In this document: positions 23,047 through 30,493 of the stretch, one piece after another
Numbering within the stretch: position 1 is the stretch's first letter
Layout of the letters: each line of letters starts with the position of its first letter
NCBI GenBank assembly: GCA_004297165.1
Contig: SCUJ01000006.1
Span: 1,712,045 to 1,776,044 of the forward strand
Reading direction: 5' to 3'
DNA: 64,000 bases
DNA from: Gammaproteobacteria bacterium
GTDB lineage: Bacteria > Pseudomonadota > Gammaproteobacteria > Eutrophobiales > Eutrophobiaceae
Position numbers and translations under genes: made by a program
The notes under the pieces: generated by a model
Database searches by the model: none
Told to the model about the DNA's origin: nothing
The model's input: only the letters and a program-made list of their open reading frames with translations

Positions 23047-24903
23047 ATGAAACAGGCCTACCTTCCAGGATTCATGCTGTGCCTTTTGCTCTGCCAGGCA
23101 GTTAGCGCTCAGGCGCCGCAATATCCACAGCGCACCGCCTATTTCGGCGATCTGCATCTGCACACCAGCATGTCCTATGACGCCGCCTGGGGCGGGGCGC
23201 GGACCACGCCCGAGGATGCCTACAACTTCGCCCAGGGCAAGGAGGTCGAATACCTCGGCCGCAAGGTCAAACGCAATGTCCCGCTGGACTTCCTCGCGGT
23301 CTCCGATCACGCGGAATATCTCGGCATCGCCATGATGATCCTCGACCCGAAGGGACCCTTCAAGGAAACGGACTGGCCCGAGTCGCTGACCATGCCCCAG
23401 ACCCCGGGCTTCTCCAGGATAATGCGCTCCGCCTTTTCCGGCCCTGAGGTGATCGCCGATTTGAACACGGACGCGCTCAAGCGCGAGAACTGGCAAAATG
23501 TGATCGAGGTCGCCAACGCCTTCAACCGGCCGGGGAAGTTCACCGCCTTTGTGGCCTTCGAGTGGACCAACACGCCGGAAGGGGCGCATTTCCACCGCGT
23601 CGCCATCTTTCCCGGACCAAAATACCCGGAAGTCCCCTTCAGCGCGCTCGACTCCAGGCACCCTGAGGATCTGTGGCGCTACGCGGACAACAACCGGACG
23701 CACGGGATCGATTCCATCATGATCCCGCACAACATGAACCTGAGCGACGGCCGGCAGTTTTCCTACAATGACTCCTTCGGCAATCCTATCGACCGGGCCT
23801 TCGCCGAGACCAAGGCCCGCAACGAGACGCTGGTCGAGGTCACCCAGATCAAGGGCACCAGCGAGACCCATCCCGAACTCTCCCCGGATGACGAGTTCGC
23901 CGGCTTCGAGGTACTCGAACACTTCCGGCGCGGGCAAGGCAACGCGACCCTGGTCGAGCGCTCGCAGGGCAGCGGCGCCGGCAATGACAAACCGCAACGG
24001 GGCGAACTGCACGGCAGTTATGCCCGCGAAGGTTACGCCCGCGGGTTCGAGATCGCCGCGCGGGTCGGCGTGAATCCCTATCAATACGGGTTGGTGGGAT
24101 CGAGCGATTACCATTCCAGCACCTCGGCGACCGAGGAGGATAATCACACCGGCGCGCTCGGCAACAGCGACAATCCCATCCCCGAAAACGCCAAAAATAT
24201 CCTCGCCACCATCAACCGGGTGCTCAATGCCCCGACCGCGGCGCTCGCCGCAAGCGGCATCACCGGGATATGGGCGGAGGAAAACACCAGGGAATCCCTG
24301 TTCGCAGCCATGCAAAGGCGGGAGGTCTACGCCACCTCCGGTCCACGGATCCAGGTGCGCCTGTTCGCAAGCCCCACATACCAGGACGGTTTGATCAAGG
24401 AAGAAAACTGGCTCTCACCGGCGTATGCGCAAGGCGTGCCGATGGGCGGCGAACTGCATAAACCCGATCTGAAGGGATCGAAACAACTCCGGTTCCTCGT
24501 CCATGCCCTGAAGGACCCGGATGGCGCCAATCTCGATCGGATCCAGATCGTCAAGGTCTGGTACGAAGGCGACAAGAGTCACGAGCGCGTCTTCGACGTT
24601 GCCTGGGCCGGCGCAAGGGGCATCGATCCAAAAACCGGAAAATTGCCGCCCGTCGGCGATACGGTGGATGTCGCCAGGGCCACATATCGCAACGATATCG
24701 GCGCCGTGCAGATCGCCGGGGAATGGACGGACCCGGAGTTCAATCCCGACGCCCCGGCCCTGTATTACGCGCGGGTCATCGAGATCCCGACGCCGCGCTG
24801 GTCGACCTATCTCGCGGTCCGCAACAACCTGCCGATCCCGGAAACCGTGCCCTCGACGCATCAGGAGAGGGCCTGGACTTCACCAATCTTTTATAACCCC
24901 TAA
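23047..24903 (+). CDS. DUF3604 protein, exported PHP-like putative metal phosphoesterase
   Basis: A 618-residue protein with a signal peptide (YLPGFMLCLLLCQAVSAQ) followed by the full DUF3604 domain. Metal-ligand-like motifs of the PHP fold are present: FGDLHLHTSMSYDA near the N-terminus, AVSDHAEYLG, MIPHNMNLSDG, and SSDYHSSTSATEEDN (an Asp-x-His pair). ATG 23047 replaces a longer reading that would overlap the reductase. The family is of unknown function and usually exported. It faces the HupE/UreJ-like and parvulin-like genes, 12 bp away tail to tail; I recall these three families often being neighbours. Confidence 0.93.
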   Translation: MKQAYLPGFMLCLLLCQAVSAQAPQYPQRTAYFGDLHLHTSMSYDAAWGGARTTPEDAYNFAQGKEVEYLGRKVKRNVPLDFLAVSDHAEYLGIAMMILDPKGPFKETDWPESLTMPQTPGFSRIMRSAFSGPEVIADLNTDALKRENWQNVIEVANAFNRPGKFTAFVAFEWTNTPEGAHFHRVAIFPGPKYPEVPFSALDSRHPEDLWRYADNNRTHGIDSIMIPHNMNLSDGRQFSYNDSFGNPIDRAFAETKARNETLVEVTQIKGTSETHPELSPDDEFAGFEVLEHFRRGQGNATLVERSQGSGAGNDKPQRGELHGSYAREGYARGFEIAARVGVNPYQYGLVGSSDYHSSTSATEEDNHTGALGNSDNPIPENAKNILATINRVLNAPTAALAASGITGIWAEENTRESLFAAMQRREVYATSGPRIQVRLFASPTYQDGLIKEENWLSPAYAQGVPMGGELHKPDLKGSKQLRFLVHALKDPDGANLDRIQIVKVWYEGDKSHERVFDVAWAGARGIDPKTGKLPPVGDTVDVARATYRNDIGAVQIAGEWTDPEFNPDAPALYYARVIEIPTPRWSTYLAVRNNLPIPETVPSTHQERAWTSPIFYNP

Positions 24904-24915
24904 CTACCTGCTGAC

Positions 24916-25908
24916 TCAGACGAATACCCGTTCGATTACCCAGAACGAGGCCAAGGCGCCGATGGCGTAGGTAGCCACGCGGCACAATTGCCTCTGAAGC
25001 GCGGGGACGAGCCGTTCCAGCAGTAACAGGAGGCCGAGCAAACTCAGGATGAATAGCAGTTGCCCGGCCTCTATCCCCAGATTAAACAGCAACAAGGCCC
25101 CCGCCACATTGGTCCCAGGGAGCCCGATCGCACTCAGGGCCCCGGCAAAGCCGAAGCCGTGCAGCAGGCCGAAGGCGAACGCGGCCTGCCAGGGGAAGAG
25201 CAGCAGCGAGCCGCCCTGATCCCGGTATTTTCGTACGAGTTCCGCGGCGACGTAGGCGATGCTGAGGGCGATCACCGCCTCCACCGCCGCCGGCCGCAGC
25301 GTGACCAGTTCTAATGCGGCGCAGGCCAGCGTAATGCTGTGCGCGACGGTGAAGGCGGTGATGGTCTTGACGAGCGTGGACAAATTCCCGATCAGCAGCA
25401 CCAGCCCCAGCAGATAGGCGAGATGGTCATAGCCTGAAGCGATGTGCTGCAGACCCAGGAGAAAATATCCGCTGACCTGTTGCCCCGTCCTGGCTCCGCG
25501 GCCGATCTCCACCGTCGGGCGTTGCGGTTTGATGAGATAGGTCACCTTGTGCCCATCCCGCCACACAACCTCGGTAAAAACGTCGGTGACGGTCTCGCGC
25601 AGACCCGAGACGGTGAGGCGCTGCCCCTCCAGTTCGTCCCTGGGCGGGGCGATGCGCCATTCCAGCACCAGGGCATCGACGGTGTTGATTCGGCGATCGG
25701 GCTCGCGATCGAGCCAGCCGGAAGAGAGATGTGGCGAAATCGACAGCGGGTACTCGCCGCGCGCCGGCAGCTTCCAGGTAACCATCACCGCGCCATCGGA
25801 CTGCTCCTGGATGAACAGACCGGCCGGCCGGATCTCGTGCGCCGGAAGCAGCGGTATTTGACAGACGAGCCAGACGGCGACCGCGAGTCTGAGGCAGACT
25901 TGCATCAT
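24916..25908 (-). CDS. HupE/UreJ family (type 2) membrane protein with extracytoplasmic N-domain
   Basis: A 330-residue protein: signal peptide (LRLAVAVWLVCQIPLLPAHE), an extracytoplasmic beta-rich domain of about 130 residues and then about seven membrane helices. The helix region holds conserved motifs HIASGYDHLAYLLGLVLL, TAFTVAHSITLACA and FGLLHGFGFAGAL, whose His and Asp residues could bind a metal ion such as nickel or cobalt. HupE/UreJ proteins are known or proposed nickel/cobalt importers. No urease or hydrogenase gene is nearby. Overlaps the parvulin gene's stop by four bases. Confidence 0.9.
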   Translation of the reverse strand: MMQVCLRLAVAVWLVCQIPLLPAHEIRPAGLFIQEQSDGAVMVTWKLPARGEYPLSISPHLSSGWLDREPDRRINTVDALVLEWRIAPPRDELEGQRLTVSGLRETVTDVFTEVVWRDGHKVTYLIKPQRPTVEIGRGARTGQQVSGYFLLGLQHIASGYDHLAYLLGLVLLIGNLSTLVKTITAFTVAHSITLACAALELVTLRPAAVEAVIALSIAYVAAELVRKYRDQGGSLLLFPWQAAFAFGLLHGFGFAGALSAIGLPGTNVAGALLLFNLGIEAGQLLFILSLLGLLLLLERLVPALQRQLCRVATYAIGALASFWVIERVFV

Positions 25909-26765
25909 TCGCGCGTGTCCCGCACCACGGTATAACCTGCCTTCAGTTTCGCGAGCCGCTCCCGATTCCTTTCAGCCGCCGCCTCTTCTTTGTATTTCTC
26001 CAGGGCCTCCTCGCGGTACTGATCCAGAGAAGGTTCGCCGGCTTCGATCCGTTCATCCACCAGGACCAGATGCCAGCCGAGCCCAGAGAGGTACGGTCCC
26101 GACCAGACCCCGGGCTCGATGCTGAAGATCGTCTGCGCAAATGGACTGTCGCCGAAGATCCTCACAACCTCATCCCGATCCAGCGCGGTATATGTTTCCT
26201 GCAAGGGGAACACATCGCCGCCGTCCGGTATTTTATCGCTACTTGATCCGGAAAGTTGTTGTAATGCCAGCGCGGCCCGGGCCGCGGCCTCTCCCGCCCC
26301 GCCCGCTTCCGGGCTGAAATAACGGTGTTTGAAACTGACCTTGGCGGGGGCCTTGAACTCATCAATGTGGGAATTGAACCACGCCTCCAACTCGGGCCCG
26401 GCGGGTGGCTCGATCCCGGCGCTATCCTGCAGCAGGAACAGCATCTTCTGAACCAGACGCTGGCGGATGATCTCGTCACCGTCGTCGAAACCGAGTTTCA
26501 ATGCCTCCCGGTAAAGCACCTCGTCCATGATGTAATTCTCGACCAGTTCCTCCAGCGATAGGTCATCCGGGAGATAGCCATAGCGGACCTCGTACAAGCC
26601 CTTGAGATGGTCGATGACCGCGGCATCGACGGTGACGGTTCGGTCGGCTTCCACCACAGCCTGATCGCGCAGGGTGACCCCGAAATAGATCAGGAGCCCA
26701 AGGAATACAAATTGCACCATGGGCTCTCTCAGCCATGTGAGACAACGTCTGGTAATCCCGGTCAC
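25905..26765 (-). CDS. Membrane-anchored parvulin-like peptidyl-prolyl isomerase
   Basis: A 286-residue protein with one N-terminal membrane helix (MVQFVFLGLLIYFGVTL, about 16-32), an N-terminal SurA/PpiD-like helical region (LSLEELVENYIMDEVLYREALKLGFDDGDEIIRQRL) and a C-terminal domain similar to Rotamase_2/parvulin (VSFKHRYFSPEAGG to GLGWHLVLVDERIE). Several catalytic parvulin residues may be missing, so it may be only a chaperone. Overlaps the HupE/UreJ-like gene by four bases, implying that the two act together. Probably assists folding of the neighbouring exported proteins. Confidence 0.88.
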   Translation of the reverse strand: MTGITRRCLTWLREPMVQFVFLGLLIYFGVTLRDQAVVEADRTVTVDAAVIDHLKGLYEVRYGYLPDDLSLEELVENYIMDEVLYREALKLGFDDGDEIIRQRLVQKMLFLLQDSAGIEPPAGPELEAWFNSHIDEFKAPAKVSFKHRYFSPEAGGAGEAAARAALALQQLSGSSSDKIPDGGDVFPLQETYTALDRDEVVRIFGDSPFAQTIFSIEPGVWSGPYLSGLGWHLVLVDERIEAGEPSLDQYREEALEKYKEEAAAERNRERLAKLKAGYTVVRDTRE

Positions 26766-26940: not shown

Positions 26941-29205
26941 ATGAAACCTGCTTATATCCTGACCGCTTATGCCATCCTGCAATTTTCCGGGACTTTCGCC
27001 CTGGGCGGCGATGGTAACCTGATTGAATGCCCGGTCCAAACGATCCCTCCCCGTCCGGCGCTCTCGGAACCGCCGGAAAATGGCGAGATCCACATCTCGG
27101 CGGACGAATCGGCCGAAGTGTCGGAAGATGGACAGGCCAGTCTTAAAGGCAATATCGACCTGGCCCGCGAAGGCCATCAATTGCGCGCCGATCGCGGTTT
27201 GGTGGACAAAACAGCGAACACCGCCAATGTCGAAGGCAACATCCATTACTGGAACAAATCGATCTATCTGCACAGTGACGCCGCCCGCCTTGACTTGGAC
27301 AACGACAAGGGCGCCTTCAACCGTACCGATTATCAGATAGCCCGCAATCAGGGGCACGGCCGGGCGGATGCGGTCGCCGTGATCGCGGACAAGAAGTCGA
27401 TTGGCACCAACATCGATTACACCACCTGCGCGAATGACGCTTCGAAGGCAGCGGGCTCCGGCACGCCCTGGCGCATCAGCGCACAGACGCTGGAGTTGGA
27501 TCATGAGACGGAGCGTGGCGTCGCCAGAAATGCCGTGCTCCGGGTCGGTGACATCCCGGTTTTGTACACGCCCTACCTCACCTTCCCGCTTTCCGATCGG
27601 CGCGCCACCGGATTCCTGATGCCGACTGTCGGGAGCTCGAACCGCAACGGACTGGAGATACAGACACCCTGGTACTGGAATATCTCCCCCGCCATGGACG
27701 CGACCTTCACCCCCAGGTTGTTGTCGAACAGCGGGGTGATGCTGATGGGCGAATACCGCTATATGTTCGCCACGGGCGTTGGCGCGCTGACCGCCGAATT
27801 CCTGCCCTCCGACCGGGATTATGACGACCGCGATCGGAGCTTCGTTTCCCTGGAACACAGTCAATCCCTGACCGAGAACGGCCGCTTGTACCTCTTGCTC
27901 AATAATGTATCGGACAAGCGCTACTTCGAGGATTTCGGCCAGACCCAGGTCAACAGCAGCAGCCAGTTCCTGGAACGCCGCGCGGAGTTTTCCTGGGGCG
28001 GCGAGAACTGGGGCATGTTTGCCCGTCTGCAAGACTATCAGACGGTGGACGAGAGCCTTCCCGCAACCTCCCGCACCTATCGCAAACTGCCGCAAATCGT
28101 TTTCAATGCGTATTCCCCCCTGCGCAACCGCCATCTGAACTATGGGGTAACGGGGGAGTTCGTCTATTTCGATCGCGGCGACAACCCGCTCCTGTCCAGC
28201 ATCAACGGTTATCGGGTCGATGTCGCACCCTCCGTCTCGTGGCCGCTGGAAAAATCCTGGGGCTTCCTCCGCCCGGGCGCGGGTCTGCGTTTTACCGCGT
28301 ATGGCCTGGATGATGCCGCCCCTAATCAGGCGGAACTGCGCCGCACGCTGCCCTACCTCGACATCGATAGCGGGTTGTTTTTCGAGCGCCCCCTGGAATT
28401 CAACGGCCGCGGCTTTGTGCAAACCCTGGAGCCCCGCTTCTATTACCTGTATATCCCGGAAGAGGACCAGAGCGATCTGCCGGTATTCGACACGGGCATC
28501 GACTATTTCGCCTACGATTCCATGTTCCACAACAACCGGTTCATCGGCGGCGATCGCATCGGCGATGCCAACCAGATTACCCTGGCGGTTGCCTCCCGGT
28601 TGCTGAACGAACAGGGGATCGAAACCCTGCGTCTCCATGTGGGTCAGATTTATTATCTGCGCGATCGCGAGGTGGTGTTGCCGGGGCAACCGATCCAGAG
28701 CGACAGAATTTCACCCCTGATCGCCGGTTTTCAGGCCAGTCTGCGCTCCGACCTCTACGTGCGGGGCGAGCTCGAGTGGGACCCCAATCTGGATCGAACC
28801 CAACGCATGGTAATTCAGGCAAATTACAATCCTGAACCGGACAAGATCCTCAACTTCGGTTATCGGGCGCGCCGTTCGGCGCCGGGCGTGCTCCGTTCCA
28901 ACCTCTTGGATATCGAGCAGACGACAGCGGCCGCGCATTGGCCGTTGGGCAAAGGGTTCAGCGCCATCGGGAGCTGGAAATACGCCCTGGCCGCGGATCG
29001 CTCGCTCGATATCCTGGCCGGCCTGGAATACAACGGCTGCTGCTGGAGTTTCCGCGCCGTCGGCCGCCGTTTCCTCACCAACGTGGATGGCGAATATCAG
29101 AATGGCGTATATATGCAATTCGAACTGAAAGGGTTGGCGAGCGCCGGCAGAAAGACCATGGACTTCCTAACTGAAAACATAACTGGGTTACAACGTGAAT
29201 TATAG
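26941..29205 (+). CDS. lptD: LPS assembly protein LptD
   Basis: Outer-membrane barrel that places lipopolysaccharide in the outer leaflet (754 aa). The start at ATG 26941 gives a signal peptide (YILTAYAILQFSGTFALG). A beta-jellyroll OstA region spans about 45-190 and the beta-barrel region follows. Four cysteines match the essential disulfide scheme: Cys30, Cys163, and the paired Cys700-Cys701 in NGCCWSF. It is followed by surA (overlap 11 bases), pdxA and rsmA, the usual Gammaproteobacterial order. It is divergent from the parvulin gene with 175 bp between. Confidence 0.97.
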   Translation: MKPAYILTAYAILQFSGTFALGGDGNLIECPVQTIPPRPALSEPPENGEIHISADESAEVSEDGQASLKGNIDLAREGHQLRADRGLVDKTANTANVEGNIHYWNKSIYLHSDAARLDLDNDKGAFNRTDYQIARNQGHGRADAVAVIADKKSIGTNIDYTTCANDASKAAGSGTPWRISAQTLELDHETERGVARNAVLRVGDIPVLYTPYLTFPLSDRRATGFLMPTVGSSNRNGLEIQTPWYWNISPAMDATFTPRLLSNSGVMLMGEYRYMFATGVGALTAEFLPSDRDYDDRDRSFVSLEHSQSLTENGRLYLLLNNVSDKRYFEDFGQTQVNSSSQFLERRAEFSWGGENWGMFARLQDYQTVDESLPATSRTYRKLPQIVFNAYSPLRNRHLNYGVTGEFVYFDRGDNPLLSSINGYRVDVAPSVSWPLEKSWGFLRPGAGLRFTAYGLDDAAPNQAELRRTLPYLDIDSGLFFERPLEFNGRGFVQTLEPRFYYLYIPEEDQSDLPVFDTGIDYFAYDSMFHNNRFIGGDRIGDANQITLAVASRLLNEQGIETLRLHVGQIYYLRDREVVLPGQPIQSDRISPLIAGFQASLRSDLYVRGELEWDPNLDRTQRMVIQANYNPEPDKILNFGYRARRSAPGVLRSNLLDIEQTTAAAHWPLGKGFSAIGSWKYALAADRSLDILAGLEYNGCCWSFRAVGRRFLTNVDGEYQNGVYMQFELKGLASAGRKTMDFLTENITGLQREL

Positions 29206-30493
29206 AAACCTTTACCTGTCGATCCGGCCCTTGCTGGCCGGCCTCCTTATCCTGCCGATCATCGCCGGGGCGGGCATTCCTCTCGATAACATCGTTGCGG
29301 TCGTCAACGAAGACGTGATCATGCGCAGCGAACTGGACGCCGAGATTCGCAGCATCACGGAACGCTTCCGGGAGCAGGGCGCTGAATTGCCGCCGCCCGA
29401 GGTCCTCGAGAAGCAAGTGCTGGATAACCTGATCCTCGTCAAGCTCCAGCTCCAGACGGCCCAGCGCACCGGGATCCGCGTGGATGACGAAACCCTGAAC
29501 CGGATGATCAGCAACATCGCGGCGGACAGCAAGATCACCCTCAAGGAACTCCGGGAGATCCTCGAAAAGGACAACATCAACTATGAGGAGTACCGCAACG
29601 ATCTGCGCAATGAAATCCAGATATCCCGGCTGCGGCAACGCCAGGTGGACAATCGGGTGACGGTTTCCGCGAAGGAGATCGATACCTATCTGGAAAATCA
29701 GGTGCAACAAGGCGAGGGCGATCGGGAGTACCGGATCTCGCATATCCTGTTTGCAATACCGGAGACCGCCTCGGCGGGCCAGCGCATCCTGATCCGCAAG
29801 CAGGCGGACGAGGCCCTGGCGCGGATTAGAAACGGCGAGGATTTTGCCAATGTTGCCTCCAGCAGTTCGGACAGCGAACAGGCCTTGCAGGGCGGCGATC
29901 TGGGCTGGCGCAAGACCGGCGAGATACCCACGCTATTCAGCGACCTCATCCTCAACATGGCGGAAGGGGATGTCAGCGAAGTGCTGACCAGCTCCAGCGG
30001 CTATCACATCGTCAAACTCACCGGCGTGCGCGACAGCGAGACCCTCGTGGTCACCCAGAATCATGCCCGACACATCCTGTTGAAGACCGACGAGGTCAAC
30101 ACCGAGGACGACATCAAGGTGAGGATGGATCAGTTGTACATCCGCCTCACGGGCGGCGACGATTTTACGGAACTGGCCAAGGGCCATTCCATGGATCCGA
30201 GCAGCGCCGCCAAGGGTGGCGATCTGGGTTGGATGAACCCCGGGGATGTGGTGCCCGAGTTCGAACAGGTCATGAATTCCCTGGATATCAACGAGATCAG
30301 CAAGCCATTCCCGAGCCAGTACGGTTGGCATATCGTGCAGGTGCTGGAGCGCAGGAGCCACGATAATACCGAGGAGCAGAAGCGCAACAAGGCGCGCGAC
30401 GCCATCCGGCAACGCAAGCTGGATGAAGCCCGTGAATCCTGGCTGAGACAGATGCGTGACGAAGCCTATGTCGAATACCGGCTTGGAAAATGA
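29195..30493 (+). CDS. surA: SurA, periplasmic chaperone and peptidyl-prolyl isomerase
   Basis: A 432-residue chaperone that guides outer-membrane proteins, LptD among them. It has a signal peptide (LLAGLLILPIIAGAG), the N-domain beginning LDNIVAVVNEDVIMRSELD, two complete parvulin domains (REYRISHILFAIPE to GYHIVKLTG; NHARHILLKTDE to GWHIVQVLE) and the C-terminal helix (RKLDEARESWLRQMRDEAYV). The start is GTG at 29195, 11 bases inside lptD; no better ATG lies near. Tight coupling with lptD fits the functional link. Overlaps pdxA by four bases. Confidence 0.97.
   Translation: MNYRNLYLSIRPLLAGLLILPIIAGAGIPLDNIVAVVNEDVIMRSELDAEIRSITERFREQGAELPPPEVLEKQVLDNLILVKLQLQTAQRTGIRVDDETLNRMISNIAADSKITLKELREILEKDNINYEEYRNDLRNEIQISRLRQRQVDNRVTVSAKEIDTYLENQVQQGEGDREYRISHILFAIPETASAGQRILIRKQADEALARIRNGEDFANVASSSSDSEQALQGGDLGWRKTGEIPTLFSDLILNMAEGDVSEVLTSSSGYHIVKLTGVRDSETLVVTQNHARHILLKTDEVNTEDDIKVRMDQLYIRLTGGDDFTELAKGHSMDPSSAAKGGDLGWMNPGDVVPEFEQVMNSLDINEISKPFPSQYGWHIVQVLERRSHDNTEEQKRNKARDAIRQRKLDEARESWLRQMRDEAYVEYRLGK

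Follow-up and report, generated by a model that had tools for sequence, protein, structure and literature searches.

DUF3604, HupE_UreJ_2 and parvulin genes as a probable functional unit in a gammaproteobacterium and its relatives

We find that three genes, encoding a DUF3604 protein, a HupE_UreJ_2 protein and a parvulin, share nearly all their gains and losses across the sampled genomes of their phylum, and therefore very likely form one functional unit. The genes lie side by side in a 64,000-nucleotide stretch of a gammaproteobacterial genome (hereafter the window, meaning the whole stretch analysed). The evidence consists of the identity of the genes, their linkage and co-occurrence, a single clade of HupE proteins and conserved putative metal sites. 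As to what the unit does, an earlier note made from the sequence alone had proposed metal supply and folding help for an exported enzyme. We find this model compatible with our observations and rank it first: by analogy with a Bacillus system, the parvulin and HupE may be dedicated folding and metal factors for exported PHP-like hydrolases, a reading we hold tentatively.

The three genes and their surroundings

Pfam profile scores confirm the coordinates and identities that the earlier note had assigned to the three genes (Table 1), as all three window proteins lie above the curated cut-offs (20.4 bits for DUF3604, 24.5 for HupE_UreJ_2 and 27 for PF13145). Their adjacency holds as well, and the overlap between the HupE and parvulin genes amounts to 4 bases. 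The DUF3604 gene is convergent to the HupE gene, on the opposite strand and with 12 bases between the gene ends, so the three genes are not one operon in the window copy. The same genome carries a second copy (C13:320679-324204; loci L001/L086) in which DUF3604, parvulin and HupE are on one strand.

Table 1. Features of the module and its vicinity (positions in the window)
Feature	Position	Strand	Evidence
DUF3604 gene, candidate exported PHP-like hydrolase, 618 aa	23047-24903	+	PF12228, 632 bits, profile 2-591 of 591; hydrophobic N-terminus
Likely signal peptide, residues 1-21 (...AVSA/QAP)	23047-23109	+	Read from sequence; presumed cleavage site
HxH motif, H37 and H39	23155-23163	+	34/34 aligned DUF3604 proteins
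DH motif, D87 and H88	23305-23310	+	H88 34/34, D87 33/34
E172 to H183, putative ligands	23560-23595	+	Both 34/34
HNxN, H228 to N231	23728-23739	+	H228 and N231 34/34; N229 33/34
DxH motif, D354 and H356	24106-24114	+	Both 34/34
HupE_UreJ_2 gene, 330 aa	24916-25908	-	PF13795, 146.8 bits
HupE membrane domain with H155, D161, H162, H190, H250, E280	24919-25494	-	All six in 29/29
HupE N-terminal extracytoplasmic domain, residues 24-138	25495-25839	-	Predicted beta-sandwich; pLDDT 78-91 in ten-residue blocks, 31 to 140
Membrane-anchored parvulin gene, 286 aa	25905-26765	-	Rotamase_2 PF13145, 57.6 bits
SurA gene	29195-30493		

The earlier note had also remarked on the absence of urease and hydrogenase. 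This extends to the genome, where a search for the urease alpha subunit gave no match and the sole NiFe-hydrogenase match fell below its cut-off (22.7 versus 25.8 bits). A riboswitch scan of the window and of 22 module loci at gathering threshold placed no metal-responsive element beside the module. A single cobalamin riboswitch is present in locus L080 (160-361), 7 kb from the module. Clustering of neighbouring genes returned sulfatases (close to the module in 7 loci), DUF2092 and DUF1254/DUF1214 as recurrent families, and no further regular partner emerged among the annotated neighbour clusters. Within the paper library covered by our search, no paper on a DUF3604-HupE-parvulin module was found.

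Co-occurrence and linkage across genomes

Of 299 genomes sampled from the phylum, 23 carry the module parvulin, 22 an intact DUF3604 gene and 21 both (Fisher 6e-29). In a sample of 151 genomes from the family, DUF3604 and the parvulin occur in the same 17 genomes. The module HupE (defined by a score above 390 bits) is confined to 16 of these; across the remaining 134 genomes the best score is 198 bits. The locus of the seventeenth genome is cut at a contig end. Among 34 genomes of the order, the parvulin is present in 4, all of them among the 5 with a DUF3604 match. These counts come from whole-genome searches, used in place of a contig scan with the window DUF3604 that gave only 4 loci; gene calls in the loci of relatives are incomplete (for example, the L083 parvulin was missed at first calling). 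Left out of membership were DUF3604 matches with E above 1e-6 (G127, G202), DUF3604 fragments (G031, G151) and weak parvulin matches of 74-80 bits in six genomes. The earlier note had suggested a conserved module, to be judged by neighbourhood analysis and to be abandoned if the families co-occurred no more than by chance. The co-occurrence seen in all three samples goes against that outcome, and the claim is strongly supported.

The genes are also physically linked. Each of the 27 module parvulins has a HupE_UreJ_2 gene as its neighbour on the same strand, and DUF3604 lies within 3.3 kb of the parvulin in 23 of the 27; in the family sample, HupE is next to the parvulin and DUF3604 is near in 18 of 19 cases each. 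Gene order and orientation vary between loci while the set is kept. The 299 genomes hold 36 intact DUF3604 genes, of which ten are located away from a parvulin-HupE pair; nine of these ten are in genomes that carry such a pair. In two genomes (G307, G310), HupE has DUF3604 beside it while a separate contig carries the parvulin, and in five cases (L066, L074, L089, G349, G379) several DUF3604 genes accompany one parvulin-HupE pair. There are also exceptions. The tenth distant DUF3604 gene, in G121, is an intact, divergent 680-aa open frame (592 bits) in a genome that lacks the parvulin, and G031 and G320 have DUF3604 fragments without it. Conversely, G294 has parvulin-HupE with no DUF3604 match anywhere in the genome, and G151 has the pair with DUF3604 only as a fragment with a stop. 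Finally, a Salipiger plasmid, for which the plasmid alone was examined, carries DUF3604 by itself.

Mantel correlations among the three proteins over 18 loci, uncorrected for species descent, are 0.70, 0.55 and 0.44. All three proteins have the same nearest-relative locus in 5 of the 18 (the window, L064, L075, L077 and L086) and differ in the other 13. Both modules of the window genome are among these five, and their nearest loci differ (L064 and L088).

The three proteins and their relatives

The DUF3604 protein has a hydrophobic N-terminus (mean hydropathy 2.25 over 12 residues) and, judging by its sequence, is likely exported. Its putative metal-binding motifs HxH, DH, H and DxH, kept in 33 or 34 of 34 proteins, follow what we take to be the motif pattern of PHP metallohydrolases. 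A DUF3604 profile found no related chain in the PDB, a comparison with NCBIfam gave no match at 0.001, and an AlphaFold2 model from 6 sequences reached a mean pLDDT of 47. A literature search for DUF3604 returned one table line, which lists a Chlamydia protein (PMC11925237).

Of 23 module parvulins, 22 carry a hydrophobic segment at the N-terminus. Two histidines presumably correspond to the catalytic residues of parvulins: the second is present in 23/23, and the first in only 9/23 (including the window protein), with Gln in the remaining 14, so foldase catalysis is doubtful. PrsA is a parvulin too, and the module protein shares with SurA/PrsA-type parvulins (PF13145) the parvulin domain and the periplasmic side; it differs in being short, anchored and associated with a single partner pair. 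The genome encodes its SurA in a separate gene.

The window HupE is a distant relative of the canonical HupE/UreJ nickel permeases (PF04955) and keeps what we take to be their H-x5-D-H motif. It differs from them in a score below cut-off (21.8 versus 23 bits), an extra domain and a genome without a urease match. Cleavage of the signal peptide presumably falls after A23, which would make H24 the first residue; of 29 module HupE proteins, 20 have His at this position and 9 have Asp. Together with 31 further HupE proteins that are linked to the parvulin or DUF3604, the window protein falls in one clade (SH-aLRT 99). The tree was a quick search on 101 of 124 hits (those below 150 bits or 170 aa and the near-copy L097 were dropped), with a long-branch warning for branches outside the module clade.

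The earlier note had stated that none of the three families has a known role, which is now outdated. A 2025 paper on a sister HupE_UreJ_2 clade (Anglerase, Ang-1) shows that the clade's extracytoplasmic domain binds both Cu (Kd 74 nM) and Ni (220 nM), Cu being bound via the N-terminal histidine in the crystal (PDB 9GCE), and names ZrgA as the structure nearest to 9GCE (PMC12537917). The window HupE resembles Ang-1 in its N-terminal His after a likely signal peptide, its extracytoplasmic domain and its PF13795 membrane domain (36% identity where the two align). However, it belongs to a separate clade, has parvulin and DUF3604 as partners rather than DUF4198, and its extracytoplasmic domain has no detectable sequence relation to that of Ang-1: the N-domain profile of the module clade (A4) gives no 9gce match at E up to 5, whereas that of the DUF4198-linked clade (A5) matches at 7.8e-33. 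The HupE model had no Foldseek match at E 0.001 or better, and in a second look 9gce was not among the 50 matches listed, an absence that carries no weight; among the matches listed, the predicted beta-sandwich is nearest to ZrgA 8f1b (Z 8.3, 100 residues, rmsd 3.0).

Possible roles of the unit

We propose that DUF3604 would be an exported hydrolase with a PHP-type metal-binding pattern, that the parvulin, with its anchor in the inner membrane and its parvulin domain on the periplasmic side, would aid the folding of the newly exported protein, and that the HupE_UreJ_2 permease with its extracytoplasmic domain would supply or hand over the metal. One parvulin-HupE pair would serve several DUF3604 paralogues per cell. 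Such a role is in line with another HupE_UreJ_2 clade, in which a gene for a metallo-beta-lactamase-fold (MBL-fold) hydrolase directly follows in 3/3 loci, and it has a precedent in Bacillus, where TerC transporters load exported enzymes with metal and are co-purified with PrsA (PMC10550928). Each system has a membrane protein from a metal-transporter family together with a membrane-held parvulin; in the module, these too would serve an exported metalloenzyme. The likeness is one of proposed function only, since the module permease is PF13795 with no TerC family match in Pfam; the B. subtilis factors (MeeF/MeeY) serve several exported enzymes; for the module, metal and role are our inference. 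Arguing against maturation are the incomplete sets described above, the replacement of the putative catalytic His in most parvulins and of the HupE N-terminal His in some proteins, and a poor fit between feeding a periplasmic enzyme and the nickel uptake reported for HupE proteins of measured function (as cited in PMC12537917).

Uptake is central to the main rival, in which DUF3604 would hydrolyse an outside compound, freeing a metal or a metal-binding product that the HupE N-domain catches and the membrane domain imports, with the parvulin folding the exported parts. The metal binding of the sister clade, proposed to feed a permease (PMC12537917), and its adjacency to DUF4198, described in that paper as a secreted Ni-binding family, point this way. 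So do the canonical HupE (PF04955) in 6 module loci and the RND pumps, inferred to be of the metal type from a CusB-like partner, that lie within 4 genes of HupE_UreJ_2 proteins of other clades in 11 loci. However, on this account one would less expect more than one DUF3604 paralogue for a pair, or DUF3604 genes at a distance from it, and no metal-responsive riboswitch accompanies the module in the loci scanned. We consider this rival unlikely.

We think it improbable that HupE instead moves a small non-metal product of DUF3604 across the inner membrane, with the metal ligands only structural. To our knowledge no substrate has been measured for the module HupE clade, its first N-terminal residue varies, and the nearby sulfatases suggest catabolic surroundings; against this stand the invariance of all six putative membrane-domain ligands and the ties of other clades to RND pumps and DUF4198. 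Very improbable, finally, is a cassette whose genes travel together, on plasmids or by transfer, and act separately. The distribution is indeed patchy, and DUF3604 is matched in 79 plasmid records (64 from Rhizobium, Sinorhizobium or Ensifer), but co-occurrence persists where the genes sit apart in the genome and the set is retained despite varying order and orientation.

Partner genes suggest that HupE_UreJ_2 splits into clades with different tasks. It is possible, though rather doubtful, that the family is mainly one of client-specific metal delivery to exported hydrolases and metal-binding proteins, and not chiefly of urease or hydrogenase importers. Each clade would have its own partner (DUF3604 and parvulin; DUF4331, on which a literature search found nothing, and a TPR protein; MBL-fold hydrolases; DUF4198), and the DUF3604 unit would be a dedicated Gram-negative counterpart of the TerC-PrsA route. 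How exported metalloenzymes are loaded with the right metal is not settled, according to PMC10550928. With near-perfect co-occurrence and plasmid copies in rhizobia that are experimentally tractable, exoenzyme metalation becomes genetically testable in Gram-negative bacteria, and the module gives a first handle on DUF3604.

The three genes in the window and its genome

The earlier note described three adjacent genes with overlapping parvulin and HupE genes, and Pfam scores for the window confirm both identities and coordinates (see table). The latter two genes overlap by four bases, and 12 bases separate the ends of the DUF3604 and HupE genes. Because DUF3604 is convergent to the parvulin/HupE pair, the three genes do not form one operon at this site. 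The flanks are unremarkable, with an aldo-keto reductase on one side and LptD and SurA on the other. By whole-genome profile search, the 3.5 Mb genome carries three HupE_UreJ_2 genes and as many full DUF3604 genes. A second copy of the set, on contig C13 (C13:320679-324204), runs DUF3604, parvulin, HupE on a single strand, and the proposed grouping is seen twice in this genome, in differing orientations. The third full DUF3604 gene (C13:1640573-1642288; locus L087) adjoins neither parvulin nor HupE. A C-terminal piece of DUF3604 is found 8 kb away (C13:1632089-1632190), a possible sign of gene turnover in this region.

Coordinates of the module genes in the window and of canonical HupE genes in or beside the module at sampled loci (L numbers)
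Gene	Sequence	Position	Strand	Evidence
DUF3604	window	23047-24903	+	PF12228, 632 bits
HupE_UreJ_2	window	24916-25908	-	PF13795, 146.8 bits
Parvulin	window	25905-26765	-	PF13145, 57.6 bits
Canonical HupE	L074	12438-13025		Pfam PF04955
Canonical HupE	L093	8262-8870		Pfam PF04955
Canonical HupE	L183	5016-5645		Pfam PF04955
Canonical HupE	L186	1963-2562		Pfam PF04955
Canonical HupE	L184	622-1230		local profile
Canonical HupE	L187	4618-5247		local profile

Linkage and co-occurrence across genomes

We sampled 299 genomes of the phylum, Pseudomonadota judging by named relatives. PF13795 had matches in 101 of these (82 above cut-off), PF12228 in 26 (25 above cut-off), and a profile built from 23 module parvulins matched 29 at 1e-20. 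Strong module parvulins (>250 bits) number 27, in 23 genomes. HupE_UreJ_2 adjoins all 27 on the same strand, and DUF3604 lies within 3.3 kb of 23, on the same strand in 20 and on the opposite strand in three, the window among them. Conversely, 26 of 35 full DUF3604 genes lie no more than 10 kb from a module parvulin, and every one of the remaining nine is in a genome with the pair at another site; a 36th, from genome G121, is counted apart and lacks the pair. Gene orders include DUF-parvulin-HupE, parvulin-HupE-DUF, convergent arrangements, and two or three DUF3604 genes per single pair. Among five labelled records, the module is present in Rhizobium sp. K102, Sinorhizobium meliloti RCAM1115, Ruegeria sp. 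AD91A and Neorhizobium petrolearium OS53; the fifth, a Salipiger plasmid, has DUF3604 without partners on that plasmid record. Sulfatase-family genes occur near the module at seven loci (L065, L066, L082, L084, L088, L089 and L131; L088 Pfam-checked).

Intact DUF3604 is found in 22 of the 299 genomes, module parvulin in 23, and both in 21 (Fisher 6e-29). The pair is present without DUF3604 in G294 and with only a DUF3604 fragment in G151. Among the 299, only G121 has an intact DUF3604 and lacks the module parvulin; in the PF13795 match list for this sample, HupE_UreJ_2 is likewise absent from it. Its DUF3604 gene (L099 8958-11000) is an open frame and divergent; by eye, the product is cysteine-rich and membrane-anchored, with an N-terminal hydrophobic segment.

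A second sample comprised 151 genomes from the family to which G253 belongs. This family is presumably Rhizobiaceae, as the G253 DUF3604 is ~92% identical to Rhizobium plasmid copies; three of the 17 module genomes in this sample are shared with the 299. DUF3604 and parvulin occupy an identical set of 17 genomes. Module HupE exceeds 390 bits in 16 of these, with every other match at or below 198 bits; in the 17th (G390), a contig end truncates parvulin. Among 34 genomes sampled from the window's order, four have parvulin; DUF3604 occurs in the same four and, as a fragment at the end of a contig, in G320, where HupE is absent as well. In two of the four (G307 and G310), DUF3604 adjoins HupE and parvulin lies alone on a different contig; the set is kept despite lost physical linkage and therefore points to a functional bond. 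The suggestion that the three families co-occur beyond chance thus holds in all three samples.

In 5.39 million open-access papers, preprints aside, we found DUF3604 only in a line of a Chlamydia table. There is no mention in this set of PF12228, PF13795 or IPR022028. IPR032809 appears only in the anglerase paper (PMC12537917), whose main text mentions neither DUF3604, parvulin nor isomerase. In the same set, UreJ and peptidyl-prolyl are co-mentioned in a single cyanobacterial paper.

Conserved residues and HupE_UreJ_2 clades

Eight DUF3604 residues (H37, H39, H88, E172, H183, H228, D354 and H356) are invariant in 34 of 34 aligned proteins, which we take to be the pattern of PHP hydrolases. 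The N-terminus is hydrophobic in 25 of the 34; start choice may have left some of the others short. HupE has six invariant residues (H155, D161, H162, H190, H250 and E280; 29/29), and the first residue beyond its probable signal peptide is a histidine in 20 of 29 proteins, including that of the window, and Asp in nine. Of two putative active-site histidines in parvulin, the second is kept in 23/23 and the first is His in nine and Gln in 14. A HupE structure model (pLDDT 79.7, four sequences) predicts an N-terminal beta-sandwich nearest to zinc-binding ZrgA (a modest Z of 8.3 over 100 residues, rmsd 3.0), followed by PA4063 (Z 8.2, also modest) and ligand-gated channels (6.6). The same ZrgA structure is given as nearest to the anglerase domain in PMC12537917.

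A tree of 101 HupE_UreJ_2 proteins places all 32 that have parvulin or DUF3604 linkage in a single group (SH-aLRT 99). Its neighbor is a DUF4198-linked group (support 89), whose profile matches crystal structure 9GCE. Twelve DUF4331- or TPR-linked proteins form a separate group (99). The loci of this clade are L103, L104, L106, L118, L119, L120, L127 and L170-L173, with L125 in part; Pfam checks of representatives identify DUF4331 (11 loci) and an exported TPR protein as partners, and a probable anti-sigma factor with a sigma factor (10 loci). One DUF4331 protein seems by eye to start Ser-Ser-His past its signal peptide, a possible metal-binding terminus. In a small third clade (L105, L113 and L181), a gene for a metallo-beta-lactamase-fold (MBL-fold) hydrolase directly follows HupE_UreJ_2; its product has a likely signal peptide and by eye is exported. 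An RND pump lies within four genes of HupE_UreJ_2 at 11 loci. Another HupE_UreJ_2 clade, at L175, L176 and L178, has a second, distant parvulin as its partner, DUF3604 not adjoining; at L175 this pair is convergent to an alkyl sulfatase.

A candidate maturation role

We tentatively rank first the proposal, somewhat short of an even chance, that parvulin and HupE are maturation factors for exported DUF3604 hydrolases, in which parvulin would help folding and HupE would deliver metal. In its favor are the co-occurrence in trans, the multiple DUF3604 genes per pair, and the fact that parvulin belongs to the set. A precedent is Bacillus, where TerC transporters load exported enzymes with metal and co-purify with PrsA (PMC10550928). 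Against it, the rule is broken in a few genomes, and functionally characterized HupE proteins are metal importers, as cited in PMC12537917. That DUF3604 instead feeds HupE as a metal importer is the less likely rival in our estimate; in its favor are Cu and Ni binding by the sister clade (PMC12537917), canonical HupE (PF04955) in six module loci (scan of 128 loci and the window), and DUF4198 and RND genes adjoining other HupE_UreJ_2 clades.

Urease gave no match in the window genome. With this result and a strong match (E<1e-30) in nine of 21 module genomes, we rejected urease as the reason for the unit. NiFe hydrogenase is above cut-off in three of the 21 (best 1e-18).

The maturation proposal may extend to other clients. 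In G151, with its DUF3604 remnant, an MBL-fold gene is the next called upstream on the same strand (L100 11027-13321); its product has a signal peptide by eye and is perhaps another client. More broadly, HupE_UreJ_2 family members seem to differ in the exported or metal-related partner to which each is tied, because they adjoin parvulin/DUF3604, DUF4198, DUF4331/TPR, MBL-fold and RND genes.
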